From NCBI RefSeq assembly GCF_015694465.1, contig NZ_JADQDO010000004.1, positions 1 to 64,000 on the forward strand: a stretch of 64,000 nt of DNA, written 5' to 3'. Shown here in pieces: positions 30,545 to 33,914 of the stretch. Within the stretch, counting starts at the first letter, position 1. Each line of letters starts with the position of its first letter. The position numbers and the translations under genes were made by a program. Origin of the DNA: Microvirga alba (GTDB lineage Bacteria; Pseudomonadota; Alphaproteobacteria; Rhizobiales; Beijerinckiaceae). The notes below the pieces were generated by a model that was not told the origin of the DNA, searched no databases, and worked only from the letters and a program-made list of their open reading frames with translations.

Positions 30545-30613
30545 ATGGATCGCAAGGAGGCTTTCCGAACGATCTTAGGGAGAGTCTTCCCCGGCGTGGA
30601 AGACCGTTCATGA
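30545..30613 (+). CDS. Possible 22-codon leader peptide ahead of the URC1-like gene
   Basis: ATG at 30545 opens a 22-residue frame beginning MDRKEAFRTIL and ending at TGA 30611-30613, which overlaps the ATG of the next gene (ATGA). Within it, GTCTTCC (30584-30590) and GGAAGAC (30598-30604) form a perfect 7-bp hairpin that would hide the GGAAG ribosome site lying 8 bases before the downstream ATG. The frame is open further upstream, and no good ribosome site precedes ATG 30545, so translation is unproven. Confidence 0.3.
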   Translation: MDRKEAFRTILGRVFPGVEDRS

Positions 30614-31872
30614 ACTCGCCCAACCGGACCACACATATCCGCCTCACCTCGCACCCGGAGCCGAATGCGGCCACGGTTCGCCGCCCCATCAAATGGGGAG
30701 TGAGCGACCCTAAGGAGCGCGGGCCGGTCATCGGTTCCATCACCAATCCATCCGACCGCAATGTCATCGGGGCCCATGGCGGCTCCTATTCGCTCTACCG
30801 CGCGCTTGCCATCTCCGCCCGCGCCCTCAACCCGATGGCGCGGCCCGATCTGCACAACACGCACCCAACGGCCGAGATCGGCCCGCATCCGCAATGGTTC
30901 GAGCCCGGCCGGATCGTGTCGCTCGATCCGTGGGGCCATATGGTCGGGCAGATCTACCGGGATGACATCGCAAGCGACGTCGATATTAGGCCGACCATCG
31001 CCATCACCAAAGCGCGGTTGAACATGCCGGAAATCCTGTCCGCCATGGGGGCGAAGCGCCTCAAGGCGGATGGCGGCGTGTTGCGCGCTTCCGGCGACAT
31101 TTCCGTCACCAAGGTCGCTGTCGATCCGGTGTGGTATCTGCCCGGCATCGCGGAGCGGTTCGGATGCGCCGAGGGCGAATTGCGCCGGACCCTGTTCGAG
31201 CAAACCGGCGGCATGTTCCCGGAACTCGTGACCCGGCCCGACATGAGCGTGTTTCTGCCGCCCATCGGCAACATCACGGTCTATGTCATCGGCGAGGTGG
31301 CCAAGCTCAGCCATCCGAAGACGCGGATCGCCTGCCGCGTGCACGACGAATGCAATGGCTCCGACGTGTTCGGCTCGGATATCTGCACCTGCCGCCCCTA
31401 TCTCGTGCACGGCATCGAGGAATGCGTGCGCGAGGCGCAAAGTGGCGGTGTCGGAATCATCGCCTATAACCGGAAAGAGGGCCGCGCGCTCGGCGAGGTC
31501 ACCAAGTTCCTCGTCTACAATGCCCGCAAGCGGCAGGAAGGCGGCGACAAGGCCTCGACGTATTTCGAGCGCACGGAATGCGTCGCGGGCGTTCAGGACG
31601 CGCGCTTCCAGCAGCTCATGCCCGACGTGTTGAACTGGCTCGGCATCCGTCGCATCGACCGGCTCATGTCCATGTCGAACATGAAATACGACGCCATTAC
31701 CGCCTCAGGCATCGAAGTGGTGGAGCGGGTGCCGATCCCGGCAGAGCTGGTGCCGCCTGACGCGCAGGTGGAGCTGGAGGCCAAGAAAGCCGCCGGTTAC
31801 TACACGCCGGAGGGAGCCCCCGATGCGTCCGACCTCGAAAAGATCAAAGGTCGCGATCTCGAGCGGTTTTAA
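30610..31872 (+). CDS. GTP cyclohydrolase II-like protein, URC1 type (uracil catabolism)
   Basis: 420 residues, about twice the length of RibA. The C-terminal half is the GTP cyclohydrolase II domain: the zinc cysteines are kept (Cys248 in CRVHDECNG, Cys259 and Cys261 in SDICTC), and the active-site arginine region reads YNRKEGRALGE (Arg292) instead of the RibA form YxRQEGRGIGL. The first 220 residues are an extension of the kind found in URC1 proteins. URC1 in the yeast Lachancea kluyveri is needed to degrade uracil by the URC pathway. The DUF1688 and uracil phosphoribosyltransferase genes follow on the same strand, which makes this role more likely than riboflavin synthesis. Confidence 0.85.
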   Translation: MNSPNRTTHIRLTSHPEPNAATVRRPIKWGVSDPKERGPVIGSITNPSDRNVIGAHGGSYSLYRALAISARALNPMARPDLHNTHPTAEIGPHPQWFEPGRIVSLDPWGHMVGQIYRDDIASDVDIRPTIAITKARLNMPEILSAMGAKRLKADGGVLRASGDISVTKVAVDPVWYLPGIAERFGCAEGELRRTLFEQTGGMFPELVTRPDMSVFLPPIGNITVYVIGEVAKLSHPKTRIACRVHDECNGSDVFGSDICTCRPYLVHGIEECVREAQSGGVGIIAYNRKEGRALGEVTKFLVYNARKRQEGGDKASTYFERTECVAGVQDARFQQLMPDVLNWLGIRRIDRLMSMSNMKYDAITASGIEVVERVPIPAELVPPDAQVELEAKKAAGYYTPEGAPDASDLEKIKGRDLERF

Positions 31873-31923
31873 ACCGGTTTCGTCCTTGCCCGGATCGTGC
31901 ATTTAACCTTCTCCGCAACCGGT

Positions 31924-31935
31924 TCTCTTAAGAGA
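31924..31935. promoter_or_regulatory. 12-bp perfect palindrome between URC1- and URC4-like genes
   Basis: TCTCTTAAGAGA lies in the 122-base gap between the two genes, 60 bases before the GTG of the DUF1688 gene. It could be an operator. No second copy was spotted near the other pyrimidine genes, so the meaning is open. Confidence 0.25.
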
Positions 31936-31994
31936 CAGGAGACAAGCCGGGACTTGTGGTATCGCTGTTCCATTGAAGAGCCTCGGAGTACGGC

Positions 31995-33248
31995 GTGACG
32001 GACCAGTTGAACCTTCCTTCGGACACCGAAGCAGCCCGAAGCCTCCTATCCGCCACGGCAGTGCGCGAGCGTTCCCACCAGATCCTCCGGCATGGCGTCG
32101 AGGGCCGCCTTCCGCATTTTGCGGTCCATCTCGACCGGCTCGAGGCTTGCGCGGACGAGGTCGTGGCGACCATCCGCGAAGCCTATCCGTCCCTCGACAT
32201 TCCCTTCCATGCCCGCTGGCGTCATTTCTCCGTCGGCGGCTATGACCGCTGGGGCGCGGTGATGCATGGTGCTCCGTGGTCGAATGCGGGCGAAATGGCC
32301 CGTGCTGCCTTCGATCTCGCCATCGTCTCGGTTCTGCTCGATGCGGGGGCCGGTCCGCAATGGCGTTACGAGGAAGGCCGGACGGCCGAGACCTATGCCC
32401 GCTCGGAGGGACTGGCGGTCGCGAGCTTCGACATGTTCATCGGCGGCGCGTTCTCGAGCCGACCCGAGGACCCGTTCAGGGTCGATGCGGACGTGCTTTT
32501 AAGCCTGAGGCCGGAAGACCTGGCAGAAGGTTTCCAGGCCTCGGCGGACAACCCTCTCGTGGGCCTCGAAGGCCGCGCCGCCCTTCTCAACCGCCTCGGC
32601 CGGGCGGTCGCGACCAATCCCGATATTTTCGGCCAGCACGACGATCCGCGCCCCGGCGGGCTGTTCGACGTCATCGCCGCGACGGCCGATGGCGAGACGA
32701 TCAAGGCCACCGCGATTCTCGAGGCATTGCTCACCTATCTCGGTTCGATCTGGCCGGGCCGCACCACGCTCGGCGGCGTCGATCTCGGCGACACCTGGCG
32801 GCATCCGCTGGTCGATGCGCCGGATGTCACGAAGGGCCTGATCCCCTTCCACAAGCTGTCCCAGTGGCTCTCCTACTCGCTGATCGAGCCGCTGGAATGG
32901 GCGGGCTACACGGTCGTGGATGTGGACGGCCTGACGGGCCTGCCCGAATACCGCAATGGCGGCCTGTTTCTCGATGCGGGTGTCCTGTCCTTGAAGGATC
33001 CCACAGAGGCAAGCCGCGCTCATCCGGTGGATTCCACCCTCGTCGTGGAATGGCGGGCCTTGACCGTGGCGCTTCTTGACCGCATTGCCGATCCGATCCG
33101 CGCGAAGCTCGGATTGAAGGCGGAGGATTTCCCCCTCGCCAAGGTGCTCGAAGGCGGCACCTGGGCGACGGGGCGCAGACTGGCCAAGGCGCGGCGCGGC
33201 GATGGATCCCCTCCTCTGACGATCATCAGCGACGGGACGGTGTTTTAA
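31995..33248 (+). CDS. DUF1688 protein, URC4 type (uracil catabolism)
   Basis: 417 residues. GTG start at 31995 with GGAG 7 bases upstream. DUF1688 features: the N-terminal RSLLSATAVRERSHQIL, the middle FHARWRHFSVGG and DRW, the TKGLIPFHKLSQWLSYSLIE segment with the following LEWAG, the GLPEYRNGGLFLDAGVL stretch, and the terminal DGTVF. URC4 of Lachancea kluyveri belongs to this family and is required for uracil breakdown; the reaction is not defined. It abuts the upp gene directly (stop then ATG with no gap), so the two are co-translated. Confidence 0.88.
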   Translation: MTDQLNLPSDTEAARSLLSATAVRERSHQILRHGVEGRLPHFAVHLDRLEACADEVVATIREAYPSLDIPFHARWRHFSVGGYDRWGAVMHGAPWSNAGEMARAAFDLAIVSVLLDAGAGPQWRYEEGRTAETYARSEGLAVASFDMFIGGAFSSRPEDPFRVDADVLLSLRPEDLAEGFQASADNPLVGLEGRAALLNRLGRAVATNPDIFGQHDDPRPGGLFDVIAATADGETIKATAILEALLTYLGSIWPGRTTLGGVDLGDTWRHPLVDAPDVTKGLIPFHKLSQWLSYSLIEPLEWAGYTVVDVDGLTGLPEYRNGGLFLDAGVLSLKDPTEASRAHPVDSTLVVEWRALTVALLDRIADPIRAKLGLKAEDFPLAKVLEGGTWATGRRLAKARRGDGSPPLTIISDGTVF

Positions 33249-33914
33249 ATGAACCAGCACAAGACGATTGAAGGGCGAAAAAGCATGCAGGGCGTTACCG
33301 TGGTCGACCATCCGCTGGTTCAGCACAAGCTGACTTTGATGCGGGAGAAAGAGCGCTCCACGAAGGGTTTCCGCCAGCTCCTCAACGAGATCGGCATGCT
33401 CCTCTGCTATGAGGTCACCCGCGACCTGCCGATGGAGCGCGTCAAGATCGAGACGCCGATGACCACGACGGAAGGCGCGCAGATCGCCGGCAAGAAGCTC
33501 GTTTTCGCCCCGATCCTGCGCGCGGGCGTTGGCTTCCTCGACGGCATGTTGACCCTCGTTCCGGCGGCGCGTGTGGCCCATATCGGCCTCTATCGCGACC
33601 CGGAATCGCTCCAGGCCGTGGAATACTATTTCAAGGCCCCGTCCGATCTCGCCGATCGCATGGTTCTCGTACTCGATCCCATGCTCGCCACAGCCAATTC
33701 GGCCGTGGCCGCCATCGACCGGCTGAAAGAGCGCGGAGCGAAGGATCTGCGTTTCGTCTGCCTGCTCGCCGCGCCGGAAGGCATCGAGAGAATGCGCAGC
33801 GCGCATCCCGACGTGCCGATCTGGACCGCCGCCATCGACGACCATCTCAACGATCACGGCTATATCGTGCCGGGCCTCGGCGATGCGGGCGACCGCATGT
33901 ATGGAACGCGCTGA
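33249..33914 (+). CDS. upp: Uracil phosphoribosyltransferase
   Basis: Makes UMP from uracil and PRPP. 221 residues; ATG at 33249 directly after the DUF1688 stop ([10 protein letters not shown] at residue 13 is a possible later start). The PRPP loop reads [14 protein letters not shown], where most bacterial Upp proteins have ATGGS, and the uracil-binding end [13 protein letters not shown] is intact. In the URC pathway uracil is first handled as a nucleotide, so this enzyme is likely the entry step of the cluster; it also serves ordinary salvage. Confidence 0.93.

Follow-up and report, generated by a model that had tools for sequence, protein, structure and literature searches.

The 64,000-nucleotide stretch of Microvirga alba DNA analysed here (the window) carries at positions 30610-33914 a bacterial URC gene set, in which the genes for URC1, URC4 and a uracil phosphoribosyltransferase are adjacent. 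With a probability of roughly 0.7, we propose that the trio forms a bacterial URC route of uracil degradation, in which URC4, a DUF1688 protein, would belong to the Qng1 branch of HhH-GPD-fold glycosylases and free urea and ribose 5-phosphate. The same probability applies to the assignment of URC4 to that branch, with its catalysis, exact substrate and products all predicted. The three genes are:

30610..31872, + strand: URC1, UTP (uridine triphosphate) cyclohydrolase-type enzyme, 420 aa, with GTP_CH_N and GTP cyclohydrolase II domains (profile matches)
31995..33248, + strand: URC4 / DUF1688, predicted Qng1-fold nucleotide N-glycosylase, 417 aa (DUF1688 profile, predicted fold)
33249..33914 (start may be 33285), + strand: upp, uracil phosphoribosyltransferase, 221 aa (TIGR01091, 275.7 bits, cut-off 208.35)

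The preliminary description of this DNA had placed the three genes consecutively on one strand, which is borne out by the common + orientation of the open reading frames and by their matches to family profiles. Profile searches locate GTP_CH_N at residues 9-198 and GTP_cyclohydro2 at residues 225-375 of URC1, which also passes NCBIfam PRK07198 with 756 bits (cut-off 403); the N-terminal extension noted earlier is real. DUF1688 spans residues 17-417 of URC4 (495.7 bits), and the third frame, 33249-33914, matches the UPRTase family. The claim that URC4 and upp follow each other without a gap holds with the first ATG, but the second Met of Upp (codon 13, 33285) lies directly before the region that is conserved in Upp; if that is the start, the two genes are 36 bases apart.

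DUF1688 is still listed by Pfam as a domain of unknown function. The predicted model of URC4 shows the Qng1 fold, with a Lys and an acidic residue at the corresponding places, the latter being Glu rather than Asp. Titles of Protein Data Bank (PDB) entries name the Qng1 mutants K199C and D231N, D231N holding queuosine-5'-monophosphate, and in the alignments of Qng1 chains K199 falls in FYKRAQ and D231 in FADYK (FANYK in the mutant chain). When the URC4 alignment is compared by hhalign with a pair of Qng1 sequences (E 1e-4, probability 57%), K287 (FHKLSQ) of URC4 falls on K199, E318 (LPEYRNGG) on D231, and R354 on an Arg common to both Qng1 sequences. We regard K287 and E318 as candidate catalytic residues of URC4. 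No statement tying DUF1688 or URC4 to Qng1 or to a glycosylase was found in the openly available literature, subscription papers lying outside this search.

The two candidate residues go with the presence of URC1. In a sample of 297 genomes from the order, DUF1688 occurs in 80 and URC1 above the cut-off in 67, all of them within the 80. K287 and E318 are both kept in 67/67 URC1-containing genomes, compared with 1/12 of those that have URC4 and no URC1 match (Fisher P 1e-12, kinship ignored). Genomes with URC4 and no URC1 match number 13 in all; the comparison covers 12 of them, among which G296 has a completeness of only 83%, and leaves out G249, whose URC4 gene is split over contig ends. Both residues are likewise kept in 12 further genomes with URC1 beside URC4 (one from the family, one from the order, five from the class and five from the phylum) and in three plasmid records with the same arrangement. 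We also defined a set of 73 invariant columns over 97 URC4 rows from URC1-containing genomes, some genomes being counted twice since they occur in two collections. Only L288 and E318 among these columns are changed in all six URC1-less rows of f28. When f28 is counted as four lineages, a random pair of columns attains the sum seen for K287 and E318 with P 0.004. On a tree built from 56 selected rows, URC1 status has to change four times, at least three of these changes being forced by well-supported branches, so that the four lineages may not be independent of one another; the tree joins L046 (URC1 present, residues intact) and L154 (URC1-less, with Q and D) as sisters (support 98/84).

These changes might instead reflect general gene decay or shared descent and be uninformative on the active site, which we consider unlikely. 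The URC1-less rows are indeed related, with the four changes on the tree, and L152, L155 and L156 have changed 10, 19 and 16 of the 73 invariant columns. However, L157 and L158 have changed just 3 and 2, E318 and L288 included, and three of the four columns changed in L154 are K287, L288 and E318, all of which its URC1-containing sister L046 keeps.

Several observations nevertheless weigh against a Qng1-type active site at K287 and E318. The hhalign probability is only 57%, from a Qng1 profile of two sequences, and plain sequence searches give no link between URC4 and Qng1, which has Asp where URC4 has Glu; moreover, the substrate cannot be read from a matching fold. K287 is kept in three of the six URC1-less f28 rows and changed in the other three, and L153, the sole exception among the URC1-less genomes, keeps both residues with no detectable URC1. 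The relatedness of the URC1-less rows, with only four changes on the tree, limits their independence. A profile search of the PDB with URC4 gave no sequence relative (one match at E 1.5), and phmmer returned four weak matches, the best at E 0.0027, three of them ankyrin-type or engineered, which we judged unrelated. The Q_salvage family (PF10343) was not passed, only DUF1688 being reported at E <= 10 for three URC4 proteins; the PF10343 profile found nothing in 299 genomes of the phylum, a result that does not show absence.

The L153 gene (8761-10212) is an intact URC4 in a 99% complete genome, with ABC (ATP-binding cassette) transporter genes near it and a dihydropyrimidinase about 7 kb away. 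In five other genomes without URC1 (L048, L049, L050, L051 and L159) a divergent DUF1688 gene is found between deo genes and upp. Its product has lost K287 and has Asp in place of E318 in 5/5, with 28-34% identity to the window's URC4 in the four aligned. In the f42 rows, W75, R76, W123, D266, E298, R354 and R369 are kept in 5/5. No constant substitute for URC1 appears among the neighbours of the eight fetched URC1-less loci and the first four f42 loci. Near the URC4-like gene and upp of L049 lie a ribokinase-like gene (6689-7711; 266.4 bits, cut-off 299.65) and an adenosine deaminase gene (12574-13563). The ribokinase found near URC4 in some loci was not used as a sign of free ribose, since it may equally serve a nucleoside operon.

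For URC1, a sequence search aligns residues 8-418 to the chains of 7eev and 7ej3 at 600 bits, and a fold search retrieved the same entries, titled 'UTP cyclohydrolase', at 63-64% identity. The predicted model of URC1 is poor (predicted local distance difference test score, pLDDT, 59.7) and served only to retrieve PDB titles and identities; as the sequence match is independent of it, the kinship stands. At this identity, the earlier suggestion that the uracil ring is opened at the nucleotide level is well supported, and judging from the sequence relationship the substrate is probably UTP rather than uridine monophosphate (UMP). C248, C259 and C261, which we take to be zinc ligands, and Y303, D330 and R332, presumably catalytic, are invariant in 17/17 aligned sequences (the window's and 16 relatives) and align with the same residues of Escherichia coli GTP cyclohydrolase II (2bz0). 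The segment YNRKEGRALGE, previously described as an altered active-site segment, is present; being invariant in the same 17/17, it is not peculiar to this strain.

A riboflavin-pathway GTP cyclohydrolase II is a highly improbable identity for the 30610 gene, even though the NCBIfam model that URC1 passes bears the name 'GTP cyclohydrolase II'. The match of URC1 to UTP cyclohydrolase reaches 600 bits and that to the E. coli enzyme 45, and in the order sample URC1 occurs only alongside URC4 (67/67). The genome holds three matches to the cyclohydrolase domain and has its own RibA and RibB: L146 is RibA (PRK08815, 495 bits, cut-off 464; PRK00393, 210.2 bits, cut-off 148), and L147 passes RibB, its RibA part being weak. 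The concern that the 30610 gene could be the sole ribA has therefore been removed, and a riboflavin function was rejected on the separate RibA and RibB, the kinship with UTP cyclohydrolase and the score of URC1 in the RibA profile PRK00393 (62.7 bits, below the cut-off of 148). The L147 gene itself (5223-6308) encodes a fusion of RibB with a cyclohydrolase-like part, which reaches 33 bits versus a RibA cut-off of 205.85 and is apparently degenerate.

In the proposed route, Upp would convert uracil and phosphoribosyl pyrophosphate (PRPP) into UMP, which cell kinases would raise to UTP. URC1, a UTP cyclohydrolase by kinship, would then open the pyrimidine ring with zinc chemistry of the GTP cyclohydrolase II type. 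GTP cyclohydrolase II releases pyrophosphate; by analogy, URC1 would do the same and leave a ring-opened 5'-monophosphate. Loss of a three-carbon piece would yield N-(5-phosphoribosyl)urea, a compound suggested by reports of ribosylurea and 3-hydroxypropionate in yeast. URC4, by means of E318 and K287, would hydrolyse its N-glycosidic bond to urea and ribose 5-phosphate, and the latter would return to PRPP, making ribose phosphate a re-usable handle.

It is also conceivable, if rather improbable, that URC4 is an N-glycosylase whose direct substrate is the ring-opened ureidoacrylate 5'-phosphonucleotide made by URC1, giving ureidoacrylate and ribose 5-phosphate, with urea formed later. The fold and residue evidence fits this equally, and the loci compared show no separate enzyme that would release the three-carbon piece as a constant neighbour of the trio. 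On the other hand, the N-terminal domain of URC1 could perform the missing hydrolysis, and in yeast it is ribosylurea that URC4 is described as degrading to urea, according to PMC7530994.

The fate of urea was considered in the context of the whole genome, which is 99.98% complete. The preliminary description had asked whether rut, pyd or preTA genes are absent. RutA is indeed absent, but contig C23 carries a reductive gene group. It encodes PreA at 728.8 bits (cut-off 335), dihydropyrimidinase at 602.6 bits (cut-off 393.25), an amidase of the hydantoinase/carbamoylase family at 438.5 bits (cut-off 204) and a PreT-like partner, which is named by position because it falls below every cut-off in the 25 families shown. 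Since this pathway is present, growth on uracil would not in itself test URC. Profile searches detected no urease and no urea carboxylase or urea amidolyase in the genome, so the strain may not recover nitrogen from urea. In bacteria such a urea-using enzyme is an accessory to URC and lies outside its core. Urease gamma has no match, and urease alpha has one sub-cut-off match of 22 bits, inside a dihydroorotase (806.5 bits, cut-off 482). The sole CT_A_B match belongs to a 5-oxoprolinase (PxpB/PxpC-like) pair, in which PxpB passes its cut-off and its partner passes the model of the domain common to 5-oxoprolinase and urea amidolyase while remaining below the PxpC model (242.8 vs 500); as urea carboxylase the pair scores 35.3 and 151.6 versus a cut-off of 1303.85.

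Supply of uracil nitrogen to this strain by the URC set, as in Lachancea, thus appears doubtful: the urease and CT_A_B results and the reductive pathway all speak against it. In its favour, strong matches to urease alpha (E < 1e-20, a threshold of our own) are commoner among the URC1-containing genomes of the order (59/67 vs 143/230 of the others; Fisher P 4e-5, kinship ignored), two of the eight URC1-containing genomes that have none being only 61% and 71% complete. This excess fits urea as a general product of the route, not a nitrogen supply here.

A scan across named genomes yielded 570 confirmed relatives of DUF1688, the best 80 of which were used for comparisons. Among these 80 loci, the fetched stretch contains URC1 in 76 and upp in 77, an association beyond chance. 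In L061, L062, L063 and L065 URC1 is not nearby; it is found elsewhere in those genomes, with 75-82% identity. The top six matches are Microvirga genomes (82-83% identity). In the phylum sample (398 genomes) DUF1688 occurs in 26. URC4 matches were also found in 13 plasmid records, annotated as 'URC4/urg3 family protein' in nine and unannotated in four, and the trio is present in each of the four plasmids fetched (two from Azospirillum, one each from Cupriavidus and Gordonia). A search of viral_contigs with the window's DUF1688 protein, which reaches close relatives only, gave no relative.

The neighbouring genes and other features of the window are as follows:

12749-12845, - strand: bacterial small signal recognition particle (SRP) RNA
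25135..26409, + strand: deoB, phosphopentomutase, nucleoside catabolism context (TIGR01696, 457.1 bits, cut-off 341.2)
26513..27445, - strand: DUF1989 protein (PF09347)
33964..34875, + strand: DGOK-family sugar kinase, directly after upp (PF05035)
40259..41581, - strand: deoA, thymidine phosphorylase (TIGR02643, 651.1 bits, cut-off 570.7)
41583..42344, - strand: deoC, deoxyribose-phosphate aldolase (TIGR00126, 191.5 bits, cut-off 117.3)

The proximity of deoB, deoA and deoC to the trio resembles the arrangement in several relatives, and deoB in particular is close to URC1 and URC4 in several of them too. A DGOK-family kinase follows upp in 7/7 Microvirga, 2/3 Enterovirga and the YIM 77505 loci, and the one in the window might act on a sugar from the URC route. 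A relative 75% identical to the DUF1989 protein adjoins URC4 and deo genes in L152. The translations of open reading frames at 29409-30074 and at L151:3901-4686 share a long, nearly identical stretch; a repeat a few hundred bases long thus seems to be interspersed in the genome in at least two copies.

Yeast genetics assigns URC4 a key step in the uracil pathway that fungi and bacteria share. Kinship with Qng1 would supply its fold and type of reaction, point to two candidate catalytic residues and offer a set of naturally altered enzymes, which makes this step directly testable. A further reading, which we hold to be less likely than not, is that URC4 stands at the base of a second branch of Qng1-type glycosylases, one that works at the metabolite level and frees urea from a sugar phosphate, and that some URC1-less copies, rather than dying, have been re-tooled for another nucleotide in deo operons; the candidates for this have lost the Lys and carry Glu changed to Asp, as in Qng1. 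Kinship with Qng1, if true, would also link tRNA-base salvage, DNA repair and the breakdown of pyrimidines through a single glycosylase fold, and would suggest a reason for loading uracil first onto a sugar phosphate. The part of interest is the proposal about URC4, which papers outside the open literature may already make.

Among known systems, Qng1 (DUF2419) shows about 15-18% identity to URC4 and is kept apart from it by Pfam; the motifs EYRNGG and EGGTW belong to URC4 only, and the predicted leaving group differs. The HhH-GPD DNA glycosylases such as endonuclease III, to which the alignment is only partial, act on DNA, whereas URC4 is predicted to act on a free nucleotide. URC1 matches the UTP cyclohydrolase of 7eev and 7ej3 over its full length, N-terminal domain included. 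The gene set as a whole belongs to an already known kind: conservation of URC genes in bacteria has been published previously, as PMC3869809 indicates, and the urg genes of Schizosaccharomyces pombe are clustered and uracil-induced according to PMC2174524. The URC system of Lachancea kluyveri and urg1-urg3 of S. pombe share with Microvirga the same URC1/urg1, URC4/urg3 (DUF1688) and uracil phosphoribosyltransferase; unlike in these systems, in the Microvirga genome, where neither urea amidolyase nor urease was detected, the trio has nucleoside-catabolism genes as its neighbours instead.

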